Virus record (IMG/VR): IMGVR_UViG_3300028569_000016
Coordinates: 41,877-105,876 of that record
Reading direction: 5' to 3' (one strand)
Source: a virus
DNA length: 64,000 nucleotides
The notes under the pieces were generated by a model. It made no database searches. It was not told the origin of the DNA and was given only the letters and a program-made list of their open reading frames with translations. A program made the translations under genes and the position numbers. Shown here piece after piece: positions 3,287-43,132 of the stretch. Positions within the stretch are counted from its first letter, which is position 1. Every line of letters starts with the position of its first letter.

Positions 3287-4152
3287 TGAATCAAGGTATT
3301 TATGCAATTGGAAGTGCCACAATAGCTTCGGTACCATATGGCGTTAATGGTATTCCTCTACCCTCTATTATTTCAGTATTGGTTGTTGGTGGTGGAGGAG
3401 GTGGCGGAGGTGGATTATTTTCCGGAAATCCAAATTTTCGTGGAGCGGCTGGAGGAGCAGGAGGTTTTATAGAATCTTTGTATATAATATCTTTGGGAAC
3501 TAGCTATACAGTAACTATCGGGGCTGGGGGTTCCGGTTCGCATGCAACAGGATTAAAGGGAGGCGACAGCTTATTCTCAACTTTTACTGCTGTTGGAGGT
3601 GGTGGTGGTGGAGGCTTTTATTATAGTGCCAATGGTAATACTCCATCATATTGGAACTCATCAATGGGTGGTATAGGTGGCTCTGGCGGAGGAGCAGCAA
3701 TAACTGGAAATATGCCTGTTGCAAATTCTATAGGAGGAAGAGCAATATTAGGACAAGGAAATGTTGGAGGAAGTGGTTTTTACAGTGCTACTGGTCCAGT
3801 TCATTTTGTTGGTGGTGCGGGAGGGGCTGGTAGTGCTGGTGGAAATGCATCTTCTGGTGGTAACGGCACGGCGGGGACTGGCAAGGCATCAACATTAAAT
3901 AACGTTACATATGCGGCTGGCGGAAGTTTGTCCTCTGGAGCTAACGCAAGTGTTAATACAGGTAACGGAGGAAACAATAATGGATCAACCACTTTTAATG
4001 GAACAAACGGAGGTTCTGGTGTTATCGTTGTAAGATTTAACAACGCTCTAAACATTAGATTAGGTGTTGGCTTGACATATGCCTCAATAATATCTGGCTC
4101 AGACAGGATTATTACAATCACAGCAGGAACAGGTACTGTTACTTTTTTTTAA
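3286..4152 (+). CDS. Glycine-rich tail-tip adhesin
   Basis: 288 residues from the ATG at 3286, chosen because it overlaps the preceding stop (TAATG); an earlier in-frame start would overlap the upstream gene by 70 bases. After a short N-terminus, LVVGGGGGGGGG opens a long series of poly-glycine runs separated by short loops (GGAGGAGGFIE, GGGGGGGFYYS, GGSGGGAA, GGAGGAGSAGG). This is the signature of glycine-rich phage receptor-binding domains, in which poly-Gly II helices pack into a sandwich and the loops contact the host, as in the T-even gp38 adhesins. The last 50 residues are non-glycine and beta-like. Loop variability would be expected to set host range. Confidence 0.75.
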   Translation: MNQGIYAIGSATIASVPYGVNGIPLPSIISVLVVGGGGGGGGGLFSGNPNFRGAAGGAGGFIESLYIISLGTSYTVTIGAGGSGSHATGLKGGDSLFSTFTAVGGGGGGGFYYSANGNTPSYWNSSMGGIGGSGGGAAITGNMPVANSIGGRAILGQGNVGGSGFYSATGPVHFVGGAGGAGSAGGNASSGGNGTAGTGKASTLNNVTYAAGGSLSSGANASVNTGNGGNNNGSTTFNGTNGGSGVIVVRFNNALNIRLGVGLTYASIISGSDRIITITAGTGTVTFF

Positions 4153-11422: not shown

Positions 11423-14400
11423 ATGGCAGCAGCATTTAATTTGACAGCACAGATTAATTTGAGAGGACCAACCAACACAAAATCAATTGCTTCGTCTATT
11501 AGAAAGCAATTATCTAATATCAAGGTTAAGATAGATCTTGATATGAAAGGATCTTCAGCCAAAAGTATAGCTCTGGTTAATAAAGGTTTACAAAGCATAG
11601 CTACAAATGCATCTAAAGCTAATTCTAATATTAATCAACTTAATGCTAGCATTCAACAATTAGCGACTAGTCTTGGTGGACTTGCAGCTTCTAGTCCACA
11701 AGCATTAGCGGCCACAGGTAAAGCGGCAAGTTCAGCTGGTAAGTCTGTTTCTACTGCAACTTCTCAGATGCAAGAATTCGGTAAACAGTCTGGACTAGCT
11801 ATTCGTAGATTTGCTGCCTTCAGTACAGTTACTGGCGTAATTTATAGTTTAACTAATGCTATTACTAGTGCTTTTAAAGAATTTATTACATTTGATAAAG
11901 AACTGGTCAGATTATCTCAAGTTACTGGATCGAGCATGACTGCTTTATCCGATATTACAAAAGAAATAACCAGACTATCAACTACTCTGGGCGTTACATC
12001 TTCTGACTTATTACAAGTTTCTGTAACCTTAGCTCAAGCCGGCTTATCTGCACAAGATACTAAAACAGCACTTGAAGCATTGGCTAAATCAGCTTTAGCG
12101 CCATCTTTCGACGATTTAAATAGTACAGTAGAAGGTAGTATTGCTTTAATGAGGCAGTTTGGTATTAGTTCTGGAGAGCTAGAAGGCGCTCTTGGTAGTA
12201 TCAATGCTGTTGCTGCTGCATTTGCTGTGGAAGCTAGCGATATTATCGTTGCTATACAAAGAACCGGTGGTGTGTTTGCTGCTGCTAGTAATGGTGTTAG
12301 TCAGGGTACGGATGCTCTTAATGAATTCATATCAGTATTTACTAGCGTACGAGCTACTACTCGTGAAAGTGCCGAAACTATCGCTACGGGTTTAAGAACA
12401 ATATTTACCAGAATACAGAGAGGAGCAACAATAGAAACTCTCAAAGAATATGGTGTTGTATTAACAGACTTAGAAGGGAAATTCGTTGGACCATATGAGG
12501 CTGTTCGCAGATTAAGTGAGGGTCTTAATGGCCTTGATACTCGTGACTTGAGATTCTCTAAGGTTGTTGAAGAACTTGGTGGATTTAGACAAATTGGTAA
12601 GGTTATTCCTCTTATCCAGCAGTTTGCAACAGCAGAAAATGCCTTATCAATTGCTCAAAAGGGTCAGAGTTCTTTGAGTAAGAATGCTGTAGAAGCTCAA
12701 AAATCGTTAGCTATTCAGTTTGAAAAAACTAGACAAGCCTTCGTTGCCCTCATTAGAGATGTTGGCAATAGTAGTACCTTTAGAACAATTGCAACGATAA
12801 GTTTAACTACCGCTAATGCTTTCGTATCTCTTGCATCAGCACTTAAGCCATTGTTACCAATGTTAACGGCTCTTGCTGCTATTAAGGGAGCATCAATTCT
12901 TAGTGAATTTACTTCTGGTTTTGTAGGAGGTCTTGGTAAAGGCGCTCCTGATGGAGGAGACGACGGAGGTGGTGGTGGCGGTGCAGGGGGTGGAGGCTCT
13001 GGCGGCGGTGGTTCGGGCGGTAAGAGTGGCAAGAGTGGCAAGGGGAAAGGTCCAGCAAGCTCTAAGGTTGTAATGGCTAATACCCATGCTACAGCTGCAA
13101 ATACTTCACAACTATCTATAGTTAATACCACATTAGTAGGAATGATTACTAGTTTAAATAACTTAACTCAGATTATTGATAATGCATTTCCACCATCTGG
13201 AGGAACCGGATCTGGTCCGACAACAGCTAGTAAGGGTGGCAGAATATTAGGATTTAAACGAGGGGGTAGTGTTCCTGGTTATGGTAGAGGAGATAAAGTA
13301 TCGGCTCTATTAGAACCAAAAGAATATGTTATGAGTCGTGATGCTGTTGAGAAATATGGCACGGGTACATTTGATGCCATGAATAGTGGAGGAGCTATTC
13401 AGAGATTTAGTGTTGGTGGAGGTACTGATGCTATATCAACATATAAAGCAAGCTCTATGGGGCTTAATAGAAGTTTAATGCTTGGAACTCCATTAACTAA
13501 AGAACAACAAAAAATCAACAAAGACTTAAGTAAACAAGCCAAAGATAAATTACCAAAACAATTATATTCTGGTATCGGAGAAAATAGACTCAACATTATT
13601 AAAAAACAGGTTGGAGACAAGCTACAAGAATCAAAAGGTAAAACATTTTCACTGCCTGGATTTTTATCTACCAGTTCAGATAGTTCTATTGCAATGGAGT
13701 TTGCTCGCCAAGGACTTTTGACTATTTTGACCAACCCTAAGAAAAAAGGCATTAATACCAATAAACGAGTGAGCACAGAATATGATCTGGAAAAAGAATT
13801 TATATTACCTCAAAATTCTAAATTTAAAGTCTTAAAAGCAGAACAAAGTCAGTCTGCTGTTCGTCCTGGTAGTTCTTTGAAAAAAGAAAAATCTAATTTA
13901 GATGTTCAACAACTAGCTTCGGGTGGAGCTATACAAAAATTTGGTAAAGGGTCGTCTGGTGGCAAGGGAGTTAAAGCATCTAAGCCTAATAGTCAATCAT
14001 TAGTTGACCTACCTCCAGACAAGGATACGCATTTTACACACCTAGACGCAAGAGTAGAAGCTAAAGATTTCCCCAAAGAATTTCAAAACTATTTAAAGAA
14101 AAACAAAAAAACATCAGTCGTTGATGCATTATATTCTAGTATGGGTTTAGATTTACCAAGAAACTGGAACCTAGACTGGAGCCAGTCACCTAATAGTGCT
14201 GGTTCATCTAGTAAATTGCTATCAGACTATATATCTAAGCCTAGCAATGAGATATTTAAAACATTATTAGGTAATAGAAAATCCTCTTCTGCGGCTGAAA
14301 AATATGGTTTTGAAGGTAGAGAAAAGTCTATAGCTGCTGGCTTTCTGTCCGAGGCACAAGATAATATTAGATCTAATTTGGCATCTTTGATTAAAAGTAA

Positions 14401-17400
14401 TAGTAAGAAATTCTATGATACTGACAAAGATGATGTCTCCACGACCATGCCTGATCTTTTAGAAAGAAGTATAGGTAAGTCTTTACCTAAATCAAAATCA
14501 CCAGTGCTTATGGAGGCATTAAAAACTAAAATAGCTTATGTAGGCAAGAATAGTAAAGGTAAGGACTATAGAGATAGAATTAATAGGGAAATGAGGAAAG
14601 TACTAAACTCAAATAAAAAATCTAATGGAGGATTCATACAAAAATTTGCTGATGCTGGAGAAGTTGATATTGATGAAAGCTTATTAAGACCTTATGGACA
14701 AGTTGGTGTTTTAGCTAAAAAGAGTCTTAAGGGTGATGCGGGATTAAGTATAGAAGAGGCCGTTAGGGAGGTTCTAGTTAAACAATTAGCCGGGCTAGGT
14801 AATGAAGCTGGTATAGCAGAACTAACCGCCATTCCTGCAAACCTACGCAGGAAGCTTAGGAAAGACATGATTTCTAAAGGGCAGATAGATTTACTAGGAG
14901 CATCTGATGTAATTAATAATGCTCTGTCCTCTAAGGGAGTACAAGATGCAGAGTATGCTGCTAAAGTTGAAAAAATGAAAAAGGTTGGTGTTGTTGGATT
15001 AGTAGATGGTCAGGGTAAATTAGATTATTCTAAAGATTTTGATAATTGGGATATTGGTAATAATCGTACAGTCTACGCTTATGCTAGAGGTTTCAAGTCC
15101 CAATATTTTGACGCTGTTACTAAAATGCAACAGCAAACAGCATCTGCTAAGGGTCAGTTTGCAGAAAATCTACAATATGCTGATATATTTACTGGTGAAC
15201 CACTAGCTTTTGATTTTGATGAAACTTTAGTTGCTGGAGCAGATATTCTTAATGATAAAGGTAAACCAGATATTCCTAAATATTCTGATAGAACCATTGT
15301 GCAAGAAGCTCTAAAGAAGGGTAGATTAACAAAACTAGGAGCTAAGTTAAAATCTCTTATAGATGCCGACCCAGACTTTATTAAACAAACTAGAATTCTT
15401 ACTGCTAGACCACAAAATACTGAAGATCTTTTGGCACAGACCCTACAGAGTTTTGGACTACCATATAAAGCTGATGATGTTACTGGAGTAAGTCAAGGTC
15501 CTGGTACAGATATTGCTGGTGCCAAAGCGGCTAATTTAAGCAAGACAGAAAAATTAATTGATGATAATCTAGATAATGTTAGGGCTGCTGAAAAATCTGG
15601 TAAAAAAGCTTATCAATATAGAGAACCAGGATTAGCTCCAGAATATCAAGAATTGATGGGTCAAGGAAATATTGAGGGTGCCGTAGTAGAGGCGGCATTA
15701 GCAGAGCTTGGAGCTAGCTTACCGCCAATCGCCCAACTAGAACAGAATAGAGCCGTAGACTTTGAGAATGGATTAGGCCCAGCTGCTAAATATTTTGGTA
15801 TCCCAAGCAATATTCCAACAGAAGTAAAGAGAACTCTTACCGGTTATGCTTTTGATAGAGCTCGTAAAGAGTTTGGTAGATATTATGATGAGAATCCTAG
15901 TAAGTGGTTTGAGGGTGGACAAATTCAAGCTTTTGATGAGGGGTCTATGGGAGGCGTTAAGCCAGATAGATCAACTAAGAATAAAAGAAGAGGGGCCTAT
16001 GGTACTCGTGGCTTTACGCCACTGTCCCCATCAGAGCACTCCTCATTTGCTGCACAAGCTTATAGAGATGCTGATAGTGATGATAGTGTTGAGTGGTCAG
16101 ATCATTATGGCATGAAGATGCCAAAAGTATTAGCTGATTATTATGATAAACTTAATAAGTGGACTTTTGAATCTGGTGGTGCTGGTATTGCTATTGGTAA
16201 GAAATTGGTTAAGCTACCTGATGATATAGATCCAGAAGCTTTAGAAGCACTTAAACCAGATTTAATTAAACAATATGATGGATGGTATACAGAGGTAGAA
16301 GAAGTATTACCATTTGGTAGACCAACAGAAACAAAGAATCCAGCACTAGCAGCTAAACAAGCTAGAGCATCAGCAGCACTAACGGCAGAAAGTCGTAATA
16401 CTGCTTATACACAAGCAGAGGATGCTATAGGTTCATTTAAGAAAACTGGACAATTATCTTTTGATCCATCAATTGATAGTCATATCAAATCATCTTTTCC
16501 AAGCTATATTAGTGAATTAGAGGATGAATTAAAATCAACAAGTGATCCCGATGAAAAAATCTCTATTCAGCGCAAACTATCTAAGGCACAAAAGGCCTGG
16601 CCAGATTACCAGGCACTAACTAAGGGAACATCAGTACCAAATCAAGGTAGAGTAACAGCGCTATCAGAAACCTTATATACTTTATTAGATCAGTATGGTA
16701 GTGGAGATGTTGCCGTATCCGAACTAGATAATATTCTTAAGGCTATGGGACAGAAACTACCAGTTAAAAAAGCCCATGGAGGAATACTACAAAAATTTAG
16801 TATTGGTGGTAAACTTTCAAGAGGATCGAATGTTCAGAATACAACGCAAGGGTTTGCGGTTGGAGGCGAAACAGAAGCTTTAAGTGACCTTAGAGATTGG
16901 ACAAACGTTCAACAAGATCCAAACTTCCAACAAGCTGTTACTGACTTTGAAGGACTCTACGGCAGAAACAACGTCATGAATAAGCCTCAGTTTGATGCTT
17001 ATGATAAAGATAAGAGTAAAACCCCCAAAATAGGAATGGACGAAGGATTAAGTGGGGCCTCGTACAAGGTTACTCCGGGAATGATAGAGCAGAAGGGCGC
17101 AGAATATCAAGATATTATAGCTAATAGGGTAGCAGGATATCGAAAAGCAAATAAAGTTCAGCAAGCAGCGATTGAAAAAAATAAGATTAAGTCCCCAGCA
17201 CAACAAGCTATGGAGGACGCCCCATTCTTTAAAGACGCTCGTATACAAAAGGCTCTTGAGGATCAAGGAAAGGGGATGAGAGACTACGAACCTCGTCCTA
17301 AGCAATATGCTATTGGAGGAATACTACAAAAATTTGCAGATGGAGGAGCGCCCGGTAAGAAATATTCTTGGAGAGAAAGTAAAGGAGTTATGGATTCCTT

Positions 17401-20400
17401 TAATTCTAAAAGGACTTGGTACGATGTTTTTGAGCATAATCCAGAGGGTGGGGCTAAAGTTGTTCATAGTGGATCTTTTGATGAAGTATTAAAATTTTTA
17501 CAAGATAATAGGAGTAAAGATACTGAGCAAAAATCTAGCGAAGATCCAATGAAAAAACTAGCTGGTGGTGGTCGTATCAAATTATACCATGGATCAAATA
17601 CTGGTGTCGATGATGCCACACTTAAAAGTTTTAAAGAAAAGGGGGCTTTGTCAGATGTTGCCCAAGGATATGGTCAAGGTGCTGGCTTTTATGTTTATAG
17701 CGGTAAAGAAAAGGCTAAAGAACAAGCTCAAATGAGAGTTAAGGGTGGACTAGGTTCTTTTGCTGTTGTTAGTGGAGATACTGCTGGTAAGCCGATGGTA
17801 TTAACTTTTGAAGAAGCACTAGATCCAGCTACATGGGACTTAGATTATGAGTTAAATAAAGGTTCGGTAGTTAAATGGTTAGCACAAAATTTTGATAAGA
17901 TTAAAGATAAAGTTGCTCCTGGCGAAAAACTAACAGGAATCAAGGATGTTGTTAGTCCTGATAGTTCTAAAGGAATAATGTCACATGGTATTAGAGTACA
18001 AAGCGATACTGGGTCTATAAAAACCATATATTCCGGTATAGATTCTGATCTTAGAGAAGGAGAGCTTGTTGGACAAATAATGAATCGTCTTCAGTCCAAT
18101 GATCCAGAGATGGTTCATGGTTTTGAGAATCAGTTCTTTAAGAGTCCATCACTAGCTAGTGGAGAATGGGATAATTTAGCATTAAAATATGTTGGATCAT
18201 CTCCATTGAAACCAGTTGATATTGAAACATTTGCCGCTGGAGGAAGTGTTCAACAATTTGCTAGAGGCGGAGTGCCAGCATTGGTTAGTAATGGTGAGGC
18301 TTATATCCCACCCTCAACTGCTAAAAGTATAGGATATGGAACCTTAAATCGTATGAATCAAGCTGATAAAAATGGTATGGGGCGTTTTGCGGTAGGTGGT
18401 GGCGTTGGGGTTTTCAAGGGGCCGGGTAGCGGCACTAGTGATAGTATCAGAACCAATTTACCAGTTGGTAGTTTTATTTTAAGGGAAAAGGCAACCAAAG
18501 CTTTAGGGTTTAATCGTGGTGGCAGTGTTGGCGTTCGTAAATTTGCCACAGGAGGCGGTGTTGGTGCTGATAGAATGGACTATCTAAATAGAATAGCAGA
18601 TAAGTTGGGTATTACAGTTCAGCAGTATGAGCGCAGTATCAGAGAAAAAATCTATAAATCTGCTAAGGGTAGTGCGGAATCTAAAACATCAGCACAATCA
18701 GATGTTGGCGATGTTTTAATTAAGAATTTAGAAAATATTGGAGATGCTAGTGTTGAGCAAGCTACTAGAGAATCATTAACAGAACTTATTAGTAAGATAG
18801 ATCCAAATATAGATGCTACTAAACTTGGATCTACTATTGATGATGTTATTACTGGTATGAAGAATGGTTTATCTGTTGATGAACTCAAACAGACTTCTAG
18901 TGATCTTAAAGATATCTTAGAAAAGGATATTTCTATAGTATCAGAACTTGCTGATGCTCATAAAAAATATGAATCAGAGTTGGGTTTCTTGACAGGTAAG
19001 ATGAAAGTTAGGGGTATTGATGTTAGAGCGCAAAAATCTCTCAAAGAGGGTAAGTTTGGAGCATTAGAGTCTGGTAATCTTAGACAAGCACAAAGAAATT
19101 TAGAGTCCCCAACAGGACAAAGAATAGATAAGTTTGGAGAAGCTCTTAAAACACAAAATATTCCGGGTATGAAATTATTATCTTCTGCTTTTCCAAAAGT
19201 TGCAGATCGTCTAACAACACTTGGAGATAAGATTGGTGGAGTTACCGGTATCATAGGAAGTGGATCAGCATTATTAAGTACTCAAATGCCTGGGTTTTTA
19301 AAATCTATTGATGCATTTGCTGGTACTGTATCTGAGGCTAGTCCAGCCGTTGCTGGATTGCAAGGAGCTCTCAGAGATGCTGGTTCTTTTGGACTAAGTG
19401 GAGCTATTGTTGGTAAACAAGCTTTTGGAGCCAAGGGTGCTGCTGTTGGTGGTGCTGTTGGATTAGCTGGTGGCGCCGTATCTGGCTTTATTAAAGAGTC
19501 AACGTCTAAAGAAGTTGAACTAGCTATGAAGGGCGTTTCAGCTGCTTCATCAGATTTGGACAAAACACTCAGTCAATTATCAGGCGCTAAAACTTTTGGA
19601 GAACGAGCAGAGCTACAAGATAGGGCTGCTAAAAACTATGAAGCTCTTAATACTGCTTTAGAAAAATCGACCAGTACAATACAACAAAATAAAATTTGGA
19701 CTTCGTTAGCAAGTGGCCTAGAAGGCTTTTTAAGCGGACTAACTATGGTTATAGGATTCATGGCCGCTGCTCAAATGGGTGGACCAACTCTTGGTCCTGG
19801 CTCTGGTAAAGGCAGTAAAGGCAAAAAAGGTGGTGGCGGTAAAGGTAAAAAAGCAGCTGGTGGTCCGATAGGATTTGCTAATGGTGGTTTAGTGCCAGTT
19901 AAGTTGGCTGACGGAGAGGGAGTTTTTACTCCTCCATTACCTGCTAGTACTGGCGAAATGAAAAAAATGAATAATGCGGACAGAAATGGTTATAAGCCGT
20001 CTTTTTCTGGTGCAATGTCGATTGTTCCTGGTGGTGGTAGCGGCAAGGTTGATAATTTTGAAACTATGCTACCAGAAGGTTCTTATGTCGTAAGAGCTGA
20101 TGCTATGAAAGCTATGCAAGAACAGGAGATGGCAACAAGCAATAAGGGTGGTTCCATAGGAGCACATCAATCTAAGATTAGCATAACAGGTTCGACGCCC
20201 AAATTATCTTCCGGTGGAGAAGTACAACACTTTGCATCAGGTGGACAAATACAAAGACTAGCTAGTGGAGGAGGAACAAGGGGTTATGCTGTCGGAGGTA
20301 TTGTTAATCTGATAATGCGAGGACTAAAGATGGGACTAGGTTCTGCCCTTGGTGCGGCTGTGATGAATGGTCTATTAAGTGCTCTTGGTCAATTTTTTGA

Positions 20401-23400
20401 TACAAGCGCACAAGATGTACAACTACAAGCAGAACTTCAAGCATTAGATCAATTAAGACGCATAGCAGATAATAGTGAGGCTTTTGCCACTGGAAATAAA
20501 TCTTATGCTAATAGAATAATGAGAAATAGTGATGTTGTTGAAAAAGCATCATTAACTCCAGAAGAAAGAAGAGCCTCTTATGGCCGCAAGGAGAGCGGAG
20601 GAAAGCTTAATAGCTTAAATATACTACAAGAACAGGAGATGAGAAGCTCTCTTGGTGCTGAAGGTATGGTTGTGAATGATCAACAGAGCGTTCAGGAGTA
20701 TCTCGATACTCTTGGTGCTGGTTCTGAAAAACGTAAAAAGGCTGATGCAGCTATAGTTAAAGCTCAAGAACGTTTACGTAAAAGAATATATATAGAAGCT
20801 CGCGTAAGACAGGGACAAGATAAAGAAGTTGCTCGTAAAGAATATGAAGGGGCTATTGGTAAAGACGGCAAAGTTCGTAATGCTAAATCTGCTGGTAAAG
20901 TTAATAACTTAGTAGATCAAGAACTGGGTAGAGAAAATAGATCCCGAGTATTAGCTGATAGATTAGAGATAATAAATAGAGATGTTAAGAAATTTACTCT
21001 GAATATTAGCGATGTAATGAGTCGTTTGTCTTCTTCTATGGCTAGAATAGTTAGTGAGATTGATGCTAGTGCTACTAGGGCTATGAATATTTCTGGAGAG
21101 TTTTCTGGTCAAGGAGCAAGAGCTAATGAACCAGATGCTCAAAATGTAAGAGTTCTTGAAAATATCACAGCATATACCAGAGACGAACTATCTTCTGTTG
21201 TTGATAATGTTACTGCTGGTCTTGGAGATAACGAGCAAACAAAACAAATAGGAAGCTTTGTTAAAGGTCTACAGGCTATTGAACAAGAACTGCCACTGAT
21301 TCTTAGAGATACAGAAGGAGGAAATCTTGAGGCTGGCTCTCGTTCGAATATAGAATCTAGATTGAGCGATATGTTTGCTGGATTAGACATGGCTCCTGGT
21401 ATTCGTAAAAAATTAGAAGATAGTGTTTTGGAGTGGATTGATAGTGGAACATCTATTAATAGAAAGGGCATGTCTGTAGATGATCTTGCTGATAATATTC
21501 AAGCATTTAAAGAACTTAAAGATTCTGGAGAAAAAGCTAGGAAAACTTTAGAGGATTATGCTAGAAAACAACTTGAGGTAAATCGTAAGCTTGGAGCTAT
21601 GTCGGATTCGTTAGCTGCTCAATTTGATAAGCTAGCAGATAACTCCATTAAAGTTAAAGATATTAACTTACAGGCCGCACTGCAACTTAAGGAAAAATTT
21701 GGACAAACACTCTCTCTAAGAGAGATGACATCACCATTTGAAGCATCTGTTGGCGGACTAACTGGTGGATTAACTGATCCTGCTACTATTGGTCAAGAAA
21801 TATCAAAAGCTATTGCAGAAAAGAGAATTCTAGAAGCTGATCCTTCTAAATCTACTAGCGCTTTGGGTTCTGGAGATATAGCAAAACTCACCTCAAAAAT
21901 TAATAAGTATACTAAAGCTCTTGATCTATTGGCAAACAATACAGATAGGGCCTCTGCTGCTCTTAAGAAAATTGATGAACAATCTCAAATTTCTGCTGGT
22001 CGTCGTCGTAGTGTGATGGACTTCTTTGATATTATAGATAACCCAGAAGCTATGCTGGGTTTTGCTAAAGAGACACAATCATATGGTAGAGTTATGGGTG
22101 GTGCTGGTAGTATTGGAGATATTAAGGGAGCAAAGTCAACACTACAAAGTTTAGAAGGAACAAAAACGCCAGAAGAATATCAAAGACTACAACAACAATT
22201 CTTTGATAACGTAACAAGAATACTTGCTAATGCTGGTGGTGATCCTGCTGTTTTTAATCAATTCAAAGATATGTTTGCTGGTGATTTTGGTAGAACTGAA
22301 GATAATCCACAAATCAAACCATATATTGATGCATTTAATCAAGCAGCCACAGTACAAACGCAAGCAGTAAGAACACAGTCTGATCTTATTAGACAGGGTG
22401 GAGAACTATTATCCAGAGCATTGTCCACATCTGCTGATGATTTTACCAATAAGATGCAAACTGCTATTACTAATATTGTTAATGAGTTAAATGCTGTGGC
22501 TACCAGATTAGGCGTAGGGGGCGGCGCTGTTCCAGCCCCACCACATGCTAAGGGCGGCTTAATAAATTATTATGCTATGGGTTCTATGGTCGATTTTGCC
22601 CCTAAGGGAACAGATACTGTTCCAGCAATGTTAACGCCAGGAGAATTCGTCGTTAACAGAGCTGCAACATCAAGGAATCTTCCACTACTACAAAATATTA
22701 ATAGTGGTAAATATAGTAGTGGTGGAAGTGTTAAATATTTAGCTAAAGGAGGTTTATTAGACCGTAGTGTACGCACTAGGTTCCCAATGGTACCAGACAC
22801 AGAGTGGGATAAATTAGCTGGCACATCTGATCATATACCATTGAGTAGTTTTCCACAAAGCGATTTGTTAAAATATGTAGATTTTAGATCAGCGTCTAAA
22901 GATAATGTATTAAATAAATCAGAACTAGATAGTTATAATTCGGCAGTACAACAACATCATGACAGATACCTCTCAGGATCTGCTCAACAAAAATATAAGG
23001 TGTTGTCAGACAATAATCTTTTGATAGATAATTTACAAAAAGAAAAGAAACAATCTTCTGGATTTTTAGGTTTTGGAGGGGACAAAAATAAAACTAAACA
23101 AACTAGTCAAGCTTTAAACAAAGCAATAGCATTTAGAGATAAAGAACTTAAAGCTGGTTCAGGTTTAGATTGGTACAAAACTTATGAAGCTGCTCATGCT
23201 ATACAGAATAATAAACGAATCACTGGCGGGCGTAACATATTAGAAGAGAATTATTTCGGTGGAGATAGAAATTTTCCATTTACTCCAGAATTTATGAAGG
23301 TGGATAATGCTTTTAGAAACGCTAAATTAGGTCTTGAGCCAGCTGATTTTGAAAGTTTAATGTATGGCTTGGCTAGTAAAGCAATTCCCGGAGTATTGGG

Positions 23401-26400
23401 TGCTGTTGGTGGTGGTTTAGGTGCCATTGCTGGTGGATCCATCGGAACTTTGGGTGGTTTGATTACTGGCCCAGGAGCAATCGTTACAGGAACTGCTGGA
23501 GCATTATCTTTAGGCTTTACTGGAGGTATGCTTGGAGATCAAATAGGACAAAATATAAATTCATATATATGGGATAAATATATTCCAGAATCTATGAAGA
23601 ATAGAGTTATGGAGAAGATGAAGGCTAGTCCAGAATCATATTCAGGAGGCCAGTGGATAGGCTTTGGTGCTGAGTTGATGGGAGGTGCTGCTGCTGATGA
23701 TATGATAAGAAAGGGTATGACATCAGCTTTTGGTAAAGCCACCTCAGTAAGCGCAAAAATGTTACAGAATGGCTCTATCACATCCAATGCTATTAAGCTT
23801 GCTCCTAATAGTATTCCTATCGCTAATGCTGATGAAATTACTAATAGAAGTTTAGCATTATTTAAAGGTGGGGCTGAGCAAACTGTTCAAAAATCGAAGA
23901 GAGTGGTTGGTGGCAGTGGAAAGGTAGCAGTCCCAGAAATGCCAGCACCCAAATCAGAAGCTCCAGCTGGTGGACGAGCAACAGCAACAGTATCTCCTCG
24001 TAATTTGAAAGCTATTCAAGAACTCTTACAAAATTCTGGACTTAAGTACAACAATGTTGATAATTTATTAGATGACTTGGTTCGTAATCCTTCTGGTAAG
24101 GGGGTTTTTGAGATTCTTGGTAAGCCACCACAAACTGGTTCTGGAGTTCTAAAGCTTCAGAGATTATTACACCCAGACACTGCTGCAACATATTTACCAG
24201 ATATTTCAGCAGATATACTTAATACGGGAAGTAAGAAATTTCAAAGAATCTTTAATATAGCTCAAAATAAAGATATTTTGAATAGATATTCATCTTTAAT
24301 AGATGATGGATATTCTCCAAATAATATCGTTGATGCATTTAAGGGTAACGATCCTCCATATTTTATTAGAAGTCAGTTGGGACAAAAACCAGGCGCTCCA
24401 AAGTCAAGAGCCAAGGCTCCGGAAGCAAGTACAGGAACAGCTACTCCCAAACCTGGATCGACAACGCCACCTCAGCCAAAAACAGATGTTCCACCAAGAG
24501 GAAAAGCTCCAGAAAGTTCAACATCTGCTACTCCAAAACCAACAGATATGTCGGCACCACCAAAACCAACTGATATGTCAGCACCACCAAAACCATCCCG
24601 TGGTAAAGCTGGTGACGGCAGCACTGGAACTAAACCAAAGCCAACACCCCCAAAGGCCCCATCTGGAGCACCATGGTCCGATACTGTTAAGACCAAGCTT
24701 GCTCAATTATGGGAAAATAGTAAAAATACTGTTGGATCAGCTAAAAATTTCTGGGATAAATTACCATCTTGGGCTAGAAAGGGTATAAGTTGGGGTAGTA
24801 CAGGATTAGGTTTGTATGGAGGCAAAGCTATATGGGATTGGGCTACCGGAAATTCATCAGTCACCATTCCAGATGCTACCCCTTCTGGAACTCCTACTGG
24901 CGGACCACTACCTCCATCTACATTTGGCGACGACCCATTAGAACCTATTAAATATGCTGTTGAAGAAGCTAAACGTAAATATGAATCGACACAAGCTGGT
25001 AGAATGGATGCTTTCAAAACACAAGATGGTCAATATAGTTTTGGACAGGTTGTGAGTGCTGCTGCTAATCTTGGTCTTAAAGATCCAATGGGTATCACGG
25101 ACTTCAGAGCACGATATGCTAAAATACCAAAATTTGAACTTGGAGATGGCTCTGAGGCTGGACAACTATTAACACAAAAAGAAAGACAAGATAAACAAGA
25201 CGAGCTAGATAGTCTAAACAATCAAATAGGCGATATTGCTCAATATGATGTCGATAATGATCCAAATATTAAGGTTCTACTTGGTAGAAGAAATGAACTA
25301 CGCAAGCAGTTGGAGAGTGACTATAGGGGACAGCTTAATCTTGGAGTGCCTACAGGAGATAAGCCTCCTAAGTTTACGTTATCAAGTCCAAAAGTTCCCA
25401 GATCCAAAGAAGACTTTGGGTTAACAGACGATATGATTGATCCAGTTTCGGGTAAGCCACTACCGGGCTTAGTCAACGCTGCTAAAGATAGTCCAATAAT
25501 TAAAGAGTTGTCAAATCTAACTTCACATCAAGCAACCCTTAATAGAAAGGATGACTCAGGAAGCGCCACACCTGGACAAACTAATGGATCATTATTATCA
25601 AAATATAAATTAGATTTTGAAGATTTAGAGAAAGAATCAGCAAACGCTAATATGCGTAATGGACAAGATCTTCTTAATAGATTTAATAAATTGAAGAAGT
25701 CTTATGTTAAAGATTTTGGACCAGTCAATGATCTTGACGATCAAGATATAGCATTTGGTATGGATGCTCAAGGAAAAGCAAAAGCACAGGGAGAGGTTAT
25801 TAGGAAACATTTGGGCGGCAAATTAGGAGATAGCTCTTTTGTTGGAGCTCCATTTAAAGGTGGTCAATCTAATGGAGCAACACCACAAGAAAAAGCAAAA
25901 GCTCGTAAAGCTATCGATGAAATGAAGACTAAGTATGGAGTATCAACAGATGATGAATTAAAAAACAAACTAGAGGGTGCCTCTGTTAAAGAACAAAAAA
26001 TTATCAATGCTGATAAAGGATGGACAAGATTTGATAATAATAAGAAGACATATCATAGTGAATTAGAAAAATATTGGATGATAAGGGCAAGATGGGAAAA
26101 TAGAGAAAAATTAAAGGCTGATCCAACTTTAATGATGACAGGTTCTCCAAATTTAAGCTCTGAAGATGTAACAAAACTTAATACAGAAATACAGGATTTG
26201 GATGGTCAGATACAGACTGCTGCTCCAGGTAAGCAAGATGTCGATGACCTAGTTCGTCGTAGACAAGAAAAGCTTGATCAACTACATCAAGGTCAAGGTA
26301 TTAAGTTTGAATCAGTTCCACCTATGGAATATTTGTTATTTAATACTCCACATGATTCATCCCATCTTAATCCATTTAATACATTTGATAATAATTCATA

Positions 26401-28984
26401 TGCTTATGGTAAACCTGGACAAAATATTAATAATGCTAAGACTCCATTTGTTAATGATACCAATTCTATTATTATTGAATTATTAACAGCATATGGTAAA
26501 GCATATGGTATTGAAGCAGATATTCCAACTAATAATAATTCATTTAATGAGTGGATTAAAGGTATCAACCCTGAGACTGCAACTAGTCTACCATCAGTAT
26601 CTACCAAAAAGAGTTGGACATTAGACAAGCTTCAAAATCATTATGCTTTAGGAGAGACTGCTGCTGATACAGAGGGTAATTTTGCAGCAAAGTTTGGTTT
26701 GTGGGGTGTCGATGGTACAGAAAACTCTTTCAATAATAATTTTACAGAGCAATACAAAGAGAAATTTTTACAAAAAGCACGAGACTATCTGGTAAGCAAA
26801 TCTCAGAAAACTGCTAATGAACAATATCGTTTACCAGAAAATACAGATAATTATCTGAAAGCTATAGATGCGTTTGCTTCATATACTGGTGGAATGGATA
26901 GGGATATTTACGGAAAAGTTAATCCGGGTTTTGGTACGCTAAATATAGATAAAGGCATTGAAGGAGCGGACGATCAAGAGAAGCTAAAGAAATTACGTAG
27001 TAAAATTAGTAGAGCATATGTGAAGTATAAGAGAGAAAATATAGATAAGGCTTTTGGTGGCATAACACCAACTAATATTGATAGATGGAAGAGTGTTGAT
27101 AATAGATATGGCTTCCCAGGTAGTCCAGAAGAGGTTAGGGATACTGTATTAGCAGATGTTAATACTTTAGATAGAATTAATAATTTAGATAATTATATGT
27201 TAAGTAATAAGGTATCACCAGCAGATATTCGTTCGTTTACTGGTGGGGCTAATTTATTGATGGCTAATAATGGTCCTATAGGAGATGCTGTTGCTGGATC
27301 TTTCTCAGATGTTGATGGAAATAAGGTAAAGGGAGATATTAAATTAGTAGATTTCTTGGTTAACGCACTAGACTTTTCAGCTCCTAGTCTTGTTAATGAT
27401 AGACAAGCTAGGATTGATACGATTATAGGCATGGAGCTTGCTTCAAAAGTAAAAAATCCAAATCCAAGATATGCGCAGGCAGAAATTGATCTTGATACAG
27501 ATCTAGAAAATATTAAAGATTCTTATAAGTTGTGGGACTCTCTCCAATCATATAGCATTGATCCAACAACTAAAAAATCAACAGTCGATTATATTAATCC
27601 AGATACATTGGCTCTGGATACTTTTACCGGAGACAAGGATTCGGTAAATATTGCTGGCCAAAATATAGAGGCAAACTCTGGTTTCTTTAGGAGTTATGCT
27701 GGTGCCTTCACAGATGATGCTCCAGAATATAATCGATTAAAGCAAACTATTTCATATCTTGGTTCATTTGCTGGTGCAGGGTTGAAGTCTGCTGATCAGA
27801 TGACAACTATGCCTTCTCCATTTGATAATGATGCTTTTATCATGACTAAAAAAGAAAAGCAAATGCAGAGCGTGGCAACAAAACCAATTGGGGCGGCGGG
27901 TGCGGGAACTGCTCCACCAGCGGGAACCTCTCCTCCAGCGGGAACCTCTCCTCCAGCGGGAACCTCTCCTCCAGCGGGAACCTCTCCTCCAGCGGGAGCC
28001 GCGCCAGCATTAACTGGTGATGTTAAGACCCAAATTCAAACAATGCGTGAATCAGTAATAGGCAGTACTGGTAAAGCTAATAGTATTTTTGCTGATAATG
28101 CTCTACAAGATAGCGAAGCTAATGAATATAGTCCTATGTTAGATAATTTAGGAAGTTTATTATTTTCTAATATATCATCGTTTAGGGGTGATTCAGAGGC
28201 AGAAGCTAAGGCATGGTGGGCATATAAAAAACATTATCGTACAATAAAAAGATTTGGAGATCCTTTTGATCCTAAAGTGGTAGCTTCTAAGCCAAATATG
28301 GAAAGTATTAATACAGAAAGGACTCTGAGAGGTAAACTAAATGAAATGATTCAACAGCCCAAGTATTTATCTAGTGGTGGTCCAGCACTAGTTAATTATC
28401 AACCAAAGGGAACTGACACCGTACCAGCCATGTTAACCCCCGGCGAATTCGTTATTAATAAATCATCAGCATCTAGACATATGCCATTATTACAAGCTAT
28501 TAATAGTGGTGGTATTTCTTATGCTAGTTCTGGTGGTGTAATCAATCCTGTATATAAGGCTAGGGCCGGTGGAGTAGGAAATATGATGGGTATGGTTCAA
28601 GGCTTTGGAAAAGCTATGGGTTTTGATATGGGTGGAGCCAGTGCAGTGTTTGATAGCTTTATCAAGTCATTCAATACCGAAACCAATAATTTTGGATCTT
28701 TAATCAATAATCTTGCTAAGGTATTTCCTGCTCTTAATGGTCCAGTTAATGCTTTTGGTGGTCATGTTGATAAATTAGTAAAAGCTCTTAATGAACTAAA
28801 ATCGATAGAAATTAAGGGACCAAATATTCCTAATACTATTAATGTTAATAGTGAAACTATAAGAGTAGAATTAGTAGGACCAGAAAATACTAACTATAAA
28901 TTAAGCCCAGATGATCAGAAAAAGATCTCAGACTCTGTAGCACTACAACTAAAAACATTAATTACAATGGGTAGAATTGCATAA
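11423..28984 (+). CDS. Giant modular tail tape measure protein (5,853 aa)
   Basis: It sets tail length and is expected to fill the tail tube lumen. Residues about 157-486 match the TP901-type tape measure core (FDKELVRLSQVTGSS, then LGVTSSDLLQVSVTLAQAG, helical to about 486). A Gly/Ser linker follows at 511-543. Later parts include ADP-ribosyltransferase-like domains at about 668-815 and 2052-2270, a HAD phosphatase-like domain at about 1255-1400 (DFDET at 1264), a J-like segment with HPD at 4250-4252, a Gly-rich hydrophobic stretch near 3987-4040 and a PPAGTS repeat at 5497-5526. The motif GG-x-(I/L/V)-Q-K-F-A-x-GG recurs at module borders, and a GTDTVPAMLTPGEFV-type unit occurs seven times. 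At roughly 1.5 angstrom per residue a fully helical ruler would reach about 0.88 micrometre; globular inserts make the real tail shorter. No frameshift is seen. Confidence 0.9.
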   Translation: MAAAFNLTAQINLRGPTNTKSIASSIRKQLSNIKVKIDLDMKGSSAKSIALVNKGLQSIATNASKANSNINQLNASIQQLATSLGGLAASSPQALAATGKAASSAGKSVSTATSQMQEFGKQSGLAIRRFAAFSTVTGVIYSLTNAITSAFKEFITFDKELVRLSQVTGSSMTALSDITKEITRLSTTLGVTSSDLLQVSVTLAQAGLSAQDTKTALEALAKSALAPSFDDLNSTVEGSIALMRQFGISSGELEGALGSINAVAAAFAVEASDIIVAIQRTGGVFAAASNGVSQGTDALNEFISVFTSVRATTRESAETIATGLRTIFTRIQRGATIETLKEYGVVLTDLEGKFVGPYEAVRRLSEGLNGLDTRDLRFSKVVEELGGFRQIGKVIPLIQQFATAENALSIAQKGQSSLSKNAVEAQKSLAIQFEKTRQAFVALIRDVGNSSTFRTIATISLTTANAFVSLASALKPLLPMLTALAAIKGASILSEFTSGFVGGLGKGAPDGGDDGGGGGGAGGGGSGGGGSGGKSGKSGKGKGPASSKVVMANTHATAANTSQLSIVNTTLVGMITSLNNLTQIIDNAFPPSGGTGSGPTTASKGGRILGFKRGGSVPGYGRGDKVSALLEPKEYVMSRDAVEKYGTGTFDAMNSGGAIQRFSVGGGTDAISTYKASSMGLNRSLMLGTPLTKEQQKINKDLSKQAKDKLPKQLYSGIGENRLNIIKKQVGDKLQESKGKTFSLPGFLSTSSDSSIAMEFARQGLLTILTNPKKKGINTNKRVSTEYDLEKEFILPQNSKFKVLKAEQSQSAVRPGSSLKKEKSNLDVQQLASGGAIQKFGKGSSGGKGVKASKPNSQSLVDLPPDKDTHFTHLDARVEAKDFPKEFQNYLKKNKKTSVVDALYSSMGLDLPRNWNLDWSQSPNSAGSSSKLLSDYISKPSNEIFKTLLGNRKSSSAAEKYGFEGREKSIAAGFLSEAQDNIRSNLASLIKSNSKKFYDTDKDDVSTTMPDLLERSIGKSLPKSKSPVLMEALKTKIAYVGKNSKGKDYRDRINREMRKVLNSNKKSNGGFIQKFADAGEVDIDESLLRPYGQVGVLAKKSLKGDAGLSIEEAVREVLVKQLAGLGNEAGIAELTAIPANLRRKLRKDMISKGQIDLLGASDVINNALSSKGVQDAEYAAKVEKMKKVGVVGLVDGQGKLDYSKDFDNWDIGNNRTVYAYARGFKSQYFDAVTKMQQQTASAKGQFAENLQYADIFTGEPLAFDFDETLVAGADILNDKGKPDIPKYSDRTIVQEALKKGRLTKLGAKLKSLIDADPDFIKQTRILTARPQNTEDLLAQTLQSFGLPYKADDVTGVSQGPGTDIAGAKAANLSKTEKLIDDNLDNVRAAEKSGKKAYQYREPGLAPEYQELMGQGNIEGAVVEAALAELGASLPPIAQLEQNRAVDFENGLGPAAKYFGIPSNIPTEVKRTLTGYAFDRARKEFGRYYDENPSKWFEGGQIQAFDEGSMGGVKPDRSTKNKRRGAYGTRGFTPLSPSEHSSFAAQAYRDADSDDSVEWSDHYGMKMPKVLADYYDKLNKWTFESGGAGIAIGKKLVKLPDDIDPEALEALKPDLIKQYDGWYTEVEEVLPFGRPTETKNPALAAKQARASAALTAESRNTAYTQAEDAIGSFKKTGQLSFDPSIDSHIKSSFPSYISELEDELKSTSDPDEKISIQRKLSKAQKAWPDYQALTKGTSVPNQGRVTALSETLYTLLDQYGSGDVAVSELDNILKAMGQKLPVKKAHGGILQKFSIGGKLSRGSNVQNTTQGFAVGGETEALSDLRDWTNVQQDPNFQQAVTDFEGLYGRNNVMNKPQFDAYDKDKSKTPKIGMDEGLSGASYKVTPGMIEQKGAEYQDIIANRVAGYRKANKVQQAAIEKNKIKSPAQQAMEDAPFFKDARIQKALEDQGKGMRDYEPRPKQYAIGGILQKFADGGAPGKKYSWRESKGVMDSFNSKRTWYDVFEHNPEGGAKVVHSGSFDEVLKFLQDNRSKDTEQKSSEDPMKKLAGGGRIKLYHGSNTGVDDATLKSFKEKGALSDVAQGYGQGAGFYVYSGKEKAKEQAQMRVKGGLGSFAVVSGDTAGKPMVLTFEEALDPATWDLDYELNKGSVVKWLAQNFDKIKDKVAPGEKLTGIKDVVSPDSSKGIMSHGIRVQSDTGSIKTIYSGIDSDLREGELVGQIMNRLQSNDPEMVHGFENQFFKSPSLASGEWDNLALKYVGSSPLKPVDIETFAAGGSVQQFARGGVPALVSNGEAYIPPSTAKSIGYGTLNRMNQADKNGMGRFAVGGGVGVFKGPGSGTSDSIRTNLPVGSFILREKATKALGFNRGGSVGVRKFATGGGVGADRMDYLNRIADKLGITVQQYERSIREKIYKSAKGSAESKTSAQSDVGDVLIKNLENIGDASVEQATRESLTELISKIDPNIDATKLGSTIDDVITGMKNGLSVDELKQTSSDLKDILEKDISIVSELADAHKKYESELGFLTGKMKVRGIDVRAQKSLKEGKFGALESGNLRQAQRNLESPTGQRIDKFGEALKTQNIPGMKLLSSAFPKVADRLTTLGDKIGGVTGIIGSGSALLSTQMPGFLKSIDAFAGTVSEASPAVAGLQGALRDAGSFGLSGAIVGKQAFGAKGAAVGGAVGLAGGAVSGFIKESTSKEVELAMKGVSAASSDLDKTLSQLSGAKTFGERAELQDRAAKNYEALNTALEKSTSTIQQNKIWTSLASGLEGFLSGLTMVIGFMAAAQMGGPTLGPGSGKGSKGKKGGGGKGKKAAGGPIGFANGGLVPVKLADGEGVFTPPLPASTGEMKKMNNADRNGYKPSFSGAMSIVPGGGSGKVDNFETMLPEGSYVVRADAMKAMQEQEMATSNKGGSIGAHQSKISITGSTPKLSSGGEVQHFASGGQIQRLASGGGTRGYAVGGIVNLIMRGLKMGLGSALGAAVMNGLLSALGQFFDTSAQDVQLQAELQALDQLRRIADNSEAFATGNKSYANRIMRNSDVVEKASLTPEERRASYGRKESGGKLNSLNILQEQEMRSSLGAEGMVVNDQQSVQEYLDTLGAGSEKRKKADAAIVKAQERLRKRIYIEARVRQGQDKEVARKEYEGAIGKDGKVRNAKSAGKVNNLVDQELGRENRSRVLADRLEIINRDVKKFTLNISDVMSRLSSSMARIVSEIDASATRAMNISGEFSGQGARANEPDAQNVRVLENITAYTRDELSSVVDNVTAGLGDNEQTKQIGSFVKGLQAIEQELPLILRDTEGGNLEAGSRSNIESRLSDMFAGLDMAPGIRKKLEDSVLEWIDSGTSINRKGMSVDDLADNIQAFKELKDSGEKARKTLEDYARKQLEVNRKLGAMSDSLAAQFDKLADNSIKVKDINLQAALQLKEKFGQTLSLREMTSPFEASVGGLTGGLTDPATIGQEISKAIAEKRILEADPSKSTSALGSGDIAKLTSKINKYTKALDLLANNTDRASAALKKIDEQSQISAGRRRSVMDFFDIIDNPEAMLGFAKETQSYGRVMGGAGSIGDIKGAKSTLQSLEGTKTPEEYQRLQQQFFDNVTRILANAGGDPAVFNQFKDMFAGDFGRTEDNPQIKPYIDAFNQAATVQTQAVRTQSDLIRQGGELLSRALSTSADDFTNKMQTAITNIVNELNAVATRLGVGGGAVPAPPHAKGGLINYYAMGSMVDFAPKGTDTVPAMLTPGEFVVNRAATSRNLPLLQNINSGKYSSGGSVKYLAKGGLLDRSVRTRFPMVPDTEWDKLAGTSDHIPLSSFPQSDLLKYVDFRSASKDNVLNKSELDSYNSAVQQHHDRYLSGSAQQKYKVLSDNNLLIDNLQKEKKQSSGFLGFGGDKNKTKQTSQALNKAIAFRDKELKAGSGLDWYKTYEAAHAIQNNKRITGGRNILEENYFGGDRNFPFTPEFMKVDNAFRNAKLGLEPADFESLMYGLASKAIPGVLGAVGGGLGAIAGGSIGTLGGLITGPGAIVTGTAGALSLGFTGGMLGDQIGQNINSYIWDKYIPESMKNRVMEKMKASPESYSGGQWIGFGAELMGGAAADDMIRKGMTSAFGKATSVSAKMLQNGSITSNAIKLAPNSIPIANADEITNRSLALFKGGAEQTVQKSKRVVGGSGKVAVPEMPAPKSEAPAGGRATATVSPRNLKAIQELLQNSGLKYNNVDNLLDDLVRNPSGKGVFEILGKPPQTGSGVLKLQRLLHPDTAATYLPDISADILNTGSKKFQRIFNIAQNKDILNRYSSLIDDGYSPNNIVDAFKGNDPPYFIRSQLGQKPGAPKSRAKAPEASTGTATPKPGSTTPPQPKTDVPPRGKAPESSTSATPKPTDMSAPPKPTDMSAPPKPSRGKAGDGSTGTKPKPTPPKAPSGAPWSDTVKTKLAQLWENSKNTVGSAKNFWDKLPSWARKGISWGSTGLGLYGGKAIWDWATGNSSVTIPDATPSGTPTGGPLPPSTFGDDPLEPIKYAVEEAKRKYESTQAGRMDAFKTQDGQYSFGQVVSAAANLGLKDPMGITDFRARYAKIPKFELGDGSEAGQLLTQKERQDKQDELDSLNNQIGDIAQYDVDNDPNIKVLLGRRNELRKQLESDYRGQLNLGVPTGDKPPKFTLSSPKVPRSKEDFGLTDDMIDPVSGKPLPGLVNAAKDSPIIKELSNLTSHQATLNRKDDSGSATPGQTNGSLLSKYKLDFEDLEKESANANMRNGQDLLNRFNKLKKSYVKDFGPVNDLDDQDIAFGMDAQGKAKAQGEVIRKHLGGKLGDSSFVGAPFKGGQSNGATPQEKAKARKAIDEMKTKYGVSTDDELKNKLEGASVKEQKIINADKGWTRFDNNKKTYHSELEKYWMIRARWENREKLKADPTLMMTGSPNLSSEDVTKLNTEIQDLDGQIQTAAPGKQDVDDLVRRRQEKLDQLHQGQGIKFESVPPMEYLLFNTPHDSSHLNPFNTFDNNSYAYGKPGQNINNAKTPFVNDTNSIIIELLTAYGKAYGIEADIPTNNNSFNEWIKGINPETATSLPSVSTKKSWTLDKLQNHYALGETAADTEGNFAAKFGLWGVDGTENSFNNNFTEQYKEKFLQKARDYLVSKSQKTANEQYRLPENTDNYLKAIDAFASYTGGMDRDIYGKVNPGFGTLNIDKGIEGADDQEKLKKLRSKISRAYVKYKRENIDKAFGGITPTNIDRWKSVDNRYGFPGSPEEVRDTVLADVNTLDRINNLDNYMLSNKVSPADIRSFTGGANLLMANNGPIGDAVAGSFSDVDGNKVKGDIKLVDFLVNALDFSAPSLVNDRQARIDTIIGMELASKVKNPNPRYAQAEIDLDTDLENIKDSYKLWDSLQSYSIDPTTKKSTVDYINPDTLALDTFTGDKDSVNIAGQNIEANSGFFRSYAGAFTDDAPEYNRLKQTISYLGSFAGAGLKSADQMTTMPSPFDNDAFIMTKKEKQMQSVATKPIGAAGAGTAPPAGTSPPAGTSPPAGTSPPAGTSPPAGAAPALTGDVKTQIQTMRESVIGSTGKANSIFADNALQDSEANEYSPMLDNLGSLLFSNISSFRGDSEAEAKAWWAYKKHYRTIKRFGDPFDPKVVASKPNMESINTERTLRGKLNEMIQQPKYLSSGGPALVNYQPKGTDTVPAMLTPGEFVINKSSASRHMPLLQAINSGGISYASSGGVINPVYKARAGGVGNMMGMVQGFGKAMGFDMGGASAVFDSFIKSFNTETNNFGSLINNLAKVFPALNGPVNAFGGHVDKLVKALNELKSIEIKGPNIPNTINVNSETIRVELVGPENTNYKLSPDDQKKISDSVALQLKTLITMGRIA
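13424..13865 (+). other. ADP-ribosyltransferase-like domain inside the tape measure (ART 1)
   Basis: Residues about 668-814 of the tape measure. LPKQLYSGIGENR at 711-722 occupies the place of the conserved YRG; FLSTSSD at 747-753 gives the Ser-Thr-Ser motif (749-751); and EKEFILPQNSKFKV gives an E-x-E pair (790, 792) followed by the usual LPxxSKFKV strand. This is the R-S-E class order seen in exotoxin-type ADP-ribosyltransferases. The NAD-binding Arg appears replaced by Ser (YSG), so activity is uncertain. Confidence 0.65.
15176..15640 (+). other. HAD-superfamily phosphatase-like domain inside the tape measure
   Basis: Residues about 1252-1406. Motif I is AFDFDETLV (D1264, D1266), motif II is RILTARPQ (T1327), then a Lys in NLSKTEK and motif IV LIDDNLDNV (D1380-D1381). 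All four HAD motifs are in order and at normal spacing for a small polynucleotide or nucleotide phosphatase. Presence inside a tail tape measure is unusual; the substrate is unknown. Confidence 0.65.
17570..18235 (+). other. Second ADP-ribosyltransferase/PARP-like domain inside the tape measure (ART 2)
   Basis: Residues about 2050-2271. It opens RIKLYHGSNTGV (H2056), then GYGQGAGFYVYSGKEKAKEQA (Y2090), the arrangement of H-Y type ADP-ribosyltransferases and related DUF toxins. A clear third catalytic Glu is not obvious to me, though TFEEALD follows. It is bounded by AGGGRIK and AGGSVQQFARGG linkers. Confidence 0.5.
24070..24290 (+). other. J-domain-like segment inside the tape measure
   Basis: Residues about 4217-4290: GVFEILGKPP, then KLQRLLHPDTAATYLPD, and FQRIFNIAQNKDIL. 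The HPD tripeptide (4250-4252) sits between helices as in DnaJ proteins. This may recruit a host Hsp70 during tail assembly or after DNA injection; the loop and helix lengths are shorter than in canonical J domains. Confidence 0.5.
27911..28000 (+). repeat. Five tandem 18-bp units coding PPAGTS
   Basis: Five 18-base units, nearly identical, code for (A/S)PPAGT repeats at residues 5497-5526. The units use GC-rich codons unlike the flanking DNA, which suggests a recent slippage expansion and a length-variable Pro/Gly linker. Confidence 0.9.
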
Positions 28985-41450: not shown

Positions 41451-41454
41451 ATGT

Positions 41455-43074: not shown

Positions 43075-43091
43075 TATGATTATATTAACAG

Positions 43092-43116
43092 AAAACCCCT
43101 CCTTGCGGAGGGGTTC
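43092..43116 (-). terminator. Terminator after ssb
   Basis: A perfect nine-base-pair stem (43094-43102 with 43107-43115), loop TTGC, read on the minus strand as AACCCCTCC-GCAA-GGAGGGGTT followed by TTC. It separates ssb from the glycosyltransferase cluster; the weak U-tract should allow some read-through. Confidence 0.75.
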
Positions 43117-43132
43117 CCGTTCCACACCATCC

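Follow-up and report, generated by a model that had tools for sequence, protein, structure and literature searches.

A giant phage tape measure protein with exchangeable enzyme-like modules: a putative delivery chassis

The giant tape-measure gene and its surroundings

The window analysed here, a stretch of 64,000 nucleotides, is part of the 105,876-bp virus record IMGVR_UViG_3300028569_000016 and holds a tape-measure gene of exceptional length. The gene and the features recognized within it are listed below by window coordinates.

11423..28984, plus strand: tape-measure gene, 5,853 aa, ATG to TAA, no internal stops
11423..12922, plus strand: tape-measure core, residues 1-500 (PF10145; 50 of 50 relatives)
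12935..13057, plus strand: Gly/Ser-rich linker, residues 505-545, marked by low-complexity windows
13238..13402, plus strand: first tape-measure linker/hairpin motif, residues 606-660 (ALLEPKEYVM...GGAIQRF), with tape-measure PHROG matches
13424..13858, plus strand: ART1, ADP-ribosyltransferase-fold module, residues 668-812 (PF03496)
14006..14626, plus strand: module, residues 862-1068, common to the relatives L003 and L050 only
14756..15919, plus strand: carrier module, residues 1112-1499, with a PD-(D/E)xK-like motif and the HAD domain inside
15191..15628, plus strand: HAD phosphatase-like domain, residues 1257-1402 (DFDET, TAR, K, IDD)
15959..16765, plus strand: module, residues 1513-1781, whole or in part in 10 tape measures
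17564..18214, plus strand: ART2, probable H-Y type ART-like module, residues 2048-2264 (LYHGS, GFYVY)
20300..22522, plus strand: second conserved segment, residues 2960-3700 (profile match in 47 of 47 tape measures)
22550..22747, plus strand: linker/hairpin motif TDTVPAMLTPGEFVVN, residues 3710-3775
23972..24322, plus strand: HPD-bearing region, residues 4184-4300, called J-like in the first-pass annotation
28370..28552, plus strand: C-terminal linker/hairpin motif, residues 5650-5710

The first-pass annotation, made from the letters of the window, had described a single 17.5-kb reading frame of 5,853 residues whose tape-measure core is limited to the first ~490 residues, with low-complexity linkers alternating with globular stretches thereafter, and all of this was confirmed. 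The frame contains no internal stop, and PF10145 (PhageMin_Tail) matches residues 180-382 with an E-value of 3.5e-24 and 86.2 bits, against a Pfam cut-off of 33.2. Tape-measure PHROGs agree with Pfam on the core, and as evidenced by the BLAST coverage of the window's protein, residues 1-500 are the sole stretch found in all 50 relatives. The second conserved segment, presumably a ruler or tube-lining part, is covered from about 3,000 to 3,760 in up to 32 of these 50; outside the core, this segment and the recurring linker motifs, coverage is patchy. The globular stretches are set apart by low-complexity Gly/Ser, Pro and GGxIQKF linkers, and the cluster of the motif at residues 606-660 is found in 45 of 47 tape measures. 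For most modules of the window other than those discussed below, Pfam, PHROG and PDB sequence profiles gave nothing convincing. Two in-frame tandem repeats also lie in the gene, one at 24533-24595 (27 bp x 2.3, encoding PKPTDMSAP) and one at 27902-27997 (18 bp x 5.3, encoding (AGTSPP)n).

A major-tail-protein PHROG matches positions 1-1029 of the window, while most genes nearby are without a PHROG match. Downstream of the tape measure, a 642-aa protein (30638-32566, plus strand) shows a weak Hoc-like Ig match. With a contractile tail in mind, Phage_sheath_1 was searched for in 13 records and was absent from them; note that divergent sheaths can escape detection, so that the missing sheath lends weak support to the reading of the virus as, probably, a siphovirus. 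The terminase (PF03354) was also examined and was uninformative.

Several other genes lie on the minus strand of the window. A ribonucleotide reductase gene (57664-60936) has matches to this enzyme at both ends, and an interior stretch that starts with CVVADSTVV, contains the LAGLIDADG-like motifs GYLLGLFLGDG and GLIAGYFDADG and ends with VHNC; judged by these motifs, the gene looks to be interrupted by an intein. At 44182-47975 two ORFs, 46089-47975 and 44182-45225, appear to make up one split DNA polymerase, with matches to positions 44-616 and 620-930 of PHROG 405, and the start of a 234-aa ORF between them resembles a DEDD exonuclease (FDFETDG). Two adjoining glycosyltransferase genes at 40344-43125 (PHROG 2170) possibly serve the glycosylation of DNA or of the virion.

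Enzyme folds beyond the core

The HAD phosphatase-like domain of the window carries the letters FDFDETL, LTARP, a lysine and LIDDN, and the corresponding motifs I-IV (D-F-D-x-T, (T/S)-A-R, lysine, D-D) are kept in all 21 aligned homologues, whose identity to the window's copy is as low as 32%. A model obtained with AlphaFold2 from 26 sequences has a mean pLDDT of 90.4, and the comparison with the PDB in Foldseek gave a probability of about 1 to several HAD structures. The top rows of that comparison are drimenol synthases, and most of the other listed matches are HAD hydrolases, AphA, phosphoserine phosphatase and the 3'-phosphatase of T4 Pnkp included. The aligned rmsd is high because of the flanking carrier. 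The T4 Pnkp 3'-phosphatase domain is among the best fold matches, with a TM-score of 0.60 on the target; there is, however, no significant match to it at the level of sequence, and no kinase domain was identified adjoining the HAD. In a search against viral models, polynucleotide kinase/phosphatase proteins were prominent. On the basis of motifs and model we regard the HAD superfamily fold with its conserved catalytic motifs as confirmed and the activity as predicted, and the likeness to polynucleotide 3'-phosphatases suggests, by analogy, a role in end repair or nucleotide dephosphorylation. The domain is hardly visible to sequence profiles, PF12710 matching 3 of 21 members (best E-value 0.013) and not the window's copy, which would explain a missing annotation.

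In the carrier that surrounds the HAD, the motif positions are E 1424, D 1446 and TEVKRT at 1466. The C-terminal half of this module, NIEGxxxE...D(F/Y)xxGLG...T(E/D)xKRT, recurs in 43 of 47 tape measures; in an alignment of 36 rows the D is invariant, the E is kept in at least 90%, and the lysine of (E/D)xK is replaced in several. The HAD is missing from the carrier of the relatives L045 and L040, and L027 has it after the carrier, not within it. A HAD/carrier profile matched in 14 of 15 records, inside the giant frame only. We suggest from these motifs that the carrier resembles PD-(D/E)xK nucleases; its designation as a proven nuclease of this type was rejected, as a carrier-only model reached a pLDDT of 59 and had no usable Foldseek match. 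For folding, two alignments of the carrier were set aside, as their N-terminal parts were misaligned.

ART1 scores 32.1 bits against PF03496 (ADPrib_exo_Tox), above the Pfam cut-off of 23.4. Two of its homologues pass as well (L041, L010), two fall below the cut-off (L028, L058) and one has no match (L050). With a profile built from six copies, solved ADP-ribosyltransferases came first in the PDB, the best E-value being 7.6e-4. The E-x-E motif, found near residue 790 in the window, is invariant in 6 of 6 homologues, and the S-T-S motif, present as FLSTS at 747, is kept in 4 of 6, with SVS and STT in the others. The arginine of the first motif, however, is absent in all six: the window has YSG where Y-R is expected, and Tyr-Ser stands where solved enzymes have Tyr-Arg. 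From these profile matches we consider the ADP-ribosyltransferase fold of ART1 confirmed, whereas its activity is uncertain for want of that arginine. ART2 is probably a module of the H-Y type, judging from the H, G and Y positions (HG, GFYVY) that are invariant in four distinct homologues; its best match to DUF3990, with an E-value of 0.017, fails to reach the cut-off. Partial matches to ART2 in other tape measures turned out to be a nucleotidyltransferase module and were dropped. In one of the relatives, the tape measure has a match to ART-PolyVal of Pfam.

The third signature named in the first-pass annotation, a J-like domain, was rejected. Residues 4184-4300 do contain the letters HPD, but the DnaJ profile PF00226 gave no match at E-values up to 10 anywhere in the contig, while control genomes did match, and this region has no homologue in the 46 other tape measures. 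As for the other named folds, the HAD stands on motifs, model and Foldseek, the ART stands once with a second one probable, and confident enzyme folds (HAD, ART) are indeed present past residue 500.

Relatives and module exchange

IMG/VR was scanned with residues 1-499 as the query, and the core was found to be encoded at 66 loci with identities of 47-100%. For long loci the downstream DNA was retrieved; 50 relatives entered the BLAST comparison, and the set for self-comparison comprised 47 tape measures including a few near-duplicates. All complete relatives consist of a single frame, with lengths of 1,958-6,454 aa; an incomplete one extends to 6,666. The closest relative, L003, has a diverged frame of 5,268 aa and a core that is 88% identical. 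Among cultured phages, Rhodococcus phage Reynauld gave one core match at 24% identity, and the modules beyond the core had no match among 50,697 phage records. The sole core-encoding contig found in the bacterial and archaeal genome collection, L098 (RFVO01000110.1, 4.8 kb, 61% identity), belongs to a Chitinophagia MAG, into whose bin it possibly came as a piece of phage DNA, and is a weak pointer to a host in the Bacteroidota. The moraphages (PMC12619734) are a possible match to the window's lineage.

The self-comparison of the 47 tape measures revealed further recurrent modules. In a P-loop plus nucleotidyltransferase module the motifs GK, P-x-T-x-GH and IS-x-T-x-x-R are invariant in 10 copies, and the nucleotidyltransferase assignment draws on a nucleotidyltransferase-like PDB match (E-value 2.9e-4), CTP_transf_like (0.011) and cytidyltransferase PHROGs. 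An HExTHQ module bears a zincin signature (HExTH) that is invariant in its alignment of 7 rows, and a PD-(D/E)xK-like module in relatives has an invariant E, P-x-D and E-x-K. A GNAT-like module, present in 12 copies, is named from its motifs alone; neither it nor its stand-alone homologues matched Pfam or the PDB. The count of an SNase-like module was discarded, as its profile came to detect the linker motif instead (41 matches), and one SNase-like copy matches an endonuclease PHROG with an E-value of 6e-4.

Further scans of IMG/VR left out the core and used as queries the alignments of the HAD, the nucleotidyltransferase and the GNAT-like module. The enclosing frames carried the tape core in 42 of 43 cases for the HAD, 36 of 37 for the nucleotidyltransferase and 27 of 38 for the GNAT-like module, and 7 further frames carry the linker motif. 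The only exception in the HAD search, L141 (1-8619), lacks the core; its frame spans at least 2,872 aa, encodes both HEVFH and the motifs of the same kind of HAD, and has no significant Pfam match. By its composition, it is possibly a polyvalent protein. GNAT-like homologues were also seen in short ORFs near position 6001 of other viral contigs (L176, L177, L178 and L179).

Compared with the window's protein, L003 has neither ART1 nor ART2 and also lacks residues about 1800-1958; the sequence flanking these gaps is colinear in BLAST. The order of ART1 and HAD varies: ART1 comes first in the window, L058 and L028, and second in L010. Between L031 and L038 the core is 59% identical, as against 98% for the zincin module and 94% for HAD and carrier; between L016 and L028 the values are 87% for the core and 38% for HAD and carrier, and between L029 and L040 they are 91% for the core and 37% for the nucleotidyltransferase. 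For the window and L003, dS amounts to 1.24 in the core and 1.2-1.3 across core and ruler segments, versus 0.35-0.47 in four modules (HAD, carrier and two others; 0.42 for residues 1513-1781), and the lower values indicate that the modules were exchanged after the cores had split. In the same pair dN/dS is 0.16 for the HAD, 0.01-0.04 for the carrier and 0.07 for the core, and the low values of HAD and carrier reflect constraint, that is, purifying selection. Module ends fall within 40 residues of GGxIQKF-type linkers in 32 of 126 cases versus 13 expected, and none of 2000 shuffles was as high as observed. By these sequence comparisons, modules are exchanged among relatives independently of the tape core.

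A ruler as putative carrier of enzymes

We consider it rather likely that the protein is a genuine tail tape measure turned into a chassis for exchangeable enzyme cargo, which is probably ejected with the DNA. The core (1-500) and the second segment (about 2960-3700) would carry out the tail work, and the glycine-rich GGxIQKF linkers and VPAMLxPGE motifs would mark the slots for recombined enzyme modules. In the window's phage the payload would consist of the HAD inside its conserved carrier, the ART-fold domain, the probable second ART and several unassigned modules. The tape measure would be packed into the tail tube as one chain and would leave the virion together with the DNA or before it, whereupon its modules would work early in infection in the host cytoplasm, the HAD perhaps on nucleotides or nucleic-acid ends and the ART on proteins or NAD. 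Note that folded enzymes beside other tape copies in a narrow tail tube are sterically awkward, so that unfolding or processing may be needed. No fold is assigned to the majority of the residues past 500, which also speaks against this reading. The description of the protein in the first-pass annotation as a carrier of enzyme domains holds in so far as enzyme folds occur beyond residue 500, modules are swapped independently of the core, and the HAD or nucleotidyltransferase used as query leads almost exclusively to giant tape-measure genes; it loses the J-like signature, and ART1 supports it less than had been assumed.

Tape measures of siphoviruses are believed to enter the cell envelope upon ejection and to form a DNA channel (PMC10770324). 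The lambda tape measure is located at the inner membrane while the DNA enters: in infected cells, a proximity enzyme attached to ManZ, a protein of that membrane, labelled it (PMC13190303). The 5,002-residue tape measure gp96 of Thermus phage P23-45 is fused to a virion RNA polymerase for which a function during DNA entry was proposed, and the relatives G18 and phiFa are without the fused enzyme (PMC10770324). Like the window's protein, it joins a very long tape measure and an enzyme in a single polypeptide, but it has one fixed N-terminal enzyme, whereas the window's protein has an N-terminal core and many exchangeable internal modules, with no RNA polymerase found among them. Polyvalent proteins (Iyer et al. 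2017, PMC5512222) likewise unite many unrelated enzyme domains, ARTs included, in one injected chain, and several disparate enzyme domains per chain are found here too (HAD and ART, with more in relatives); they occur, however, in head, relaxase and other contexts, and the main text of that paper does not contain the words 'tape measure'. In Tme (PMC11126660) and Sle1 (PMC13277306) a tape-measure-like protein bears a functional domain that varies between relatives. Both belong to Streptomyces contractile injection systems and carry a C-terminal domain, in contrast to the several internal modules of the window's phage. What is new here is that the phage tape measures of a whole family would carry, within the chain, an exchangeable payload of several enzymes; no description of a swappable multi-enzyme tape measure was found in the open-access papers searched.

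The inserted domains might instead be enzyme-derived folds that serve as structural filler, spacers or binding decoys and need no catalysis. The missing first-motif arginine of ART1 and the loss of the carrier lysine in some relatives would fit such a role, as would a module content so variable that only core, ruler and carrier are common to nearly all. It is at odds, however, with the invariance of HAD motifs I-IV in 21 homologues at identities down to 32%, with the nucleotidyltransferase and zincin signatures that are invariant in their alignments, and with a dN/dS of 0.16 for the HAD, and we hold it to be unlikely. Fusion of several genes through sequencing or assembly error, as the unusual length and the lack of relationship between the modules might suggest, is refuted by the giant single frames of the relatives. 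A 125 kb IMG/VR record (L002/L070) contains an identical frame of 5,853 aa, L003 a diverged one of 5,268 aa, and complete relatives extend to 6,454 aa in a single frame, which makes such an artefact exceedingly improbable.

The modules could also be active elsewhere, in the cell envelope or during assembly, in the manner of peptidoglycan hydrolases or a maturation protease. The tape measure of mycobacteriophage TM4, with its peptidoglycan-hydrolase motif, is a further case of an enzyme motif in a tape measure that aids infection, although it acts on the cell wall with a single motif and has no cassette of cytoplasm-type enzymes (PMC1796659). Some HAD phosphatases are moreover periplasmic, AphA being among the fold matches, and the zincin could process the tape. 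Against this, neither the window's protein nor its relatives yielded a match to any family of cell-wall hydrolases, and the nucleotidyltransferases and ARTs use ATP or NAD, which are cytoplasmic; we give this alternative little chance. Given these cytoplasmic cofactors and the precedents of P23-45 and lambda, exposure of the cargo to the host cytoplasm at entry is the economical reading.

The differing sets of enzymes exchanged among dozens of uncultured relatives suggest that the ruler doubles as a putative delivery vehicle. In its widest form, on which we are evenly divided, this proposal holds that the family loads varying sets of HAD, ART-fold, nucleotidyltransferase/P-loop, zincin, GNAT-like and nuclease-like modules into the tail tube, and that these, once ejected, encounter the host before any other protein, probably in order to repair ends or cofactors and to disarm defences before phage gene expression. 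Tape measures are usually seen as rulers and membrane channels. If the cargo is delivered, they would in addition be chassis for early effectors, beside the head-packaged Alt of T4. This would explain tape measures of 4,000-6,600 residues, and the simple rule that relates gene length to tail length would be broken for the window's tape-measure family. With the established helical rise of about 0.15 nm per residue, 5,853 residues would correspond to a tail of about 880 nm if the entire chain served as ruler. It would also provide a catalogue of candidate enzymes for host takeover and counter-defence, recognized by their place between tape-measure linkers, and a phage counterpart to the reconfigurable tape-measure effectors of bacterial injection systems.
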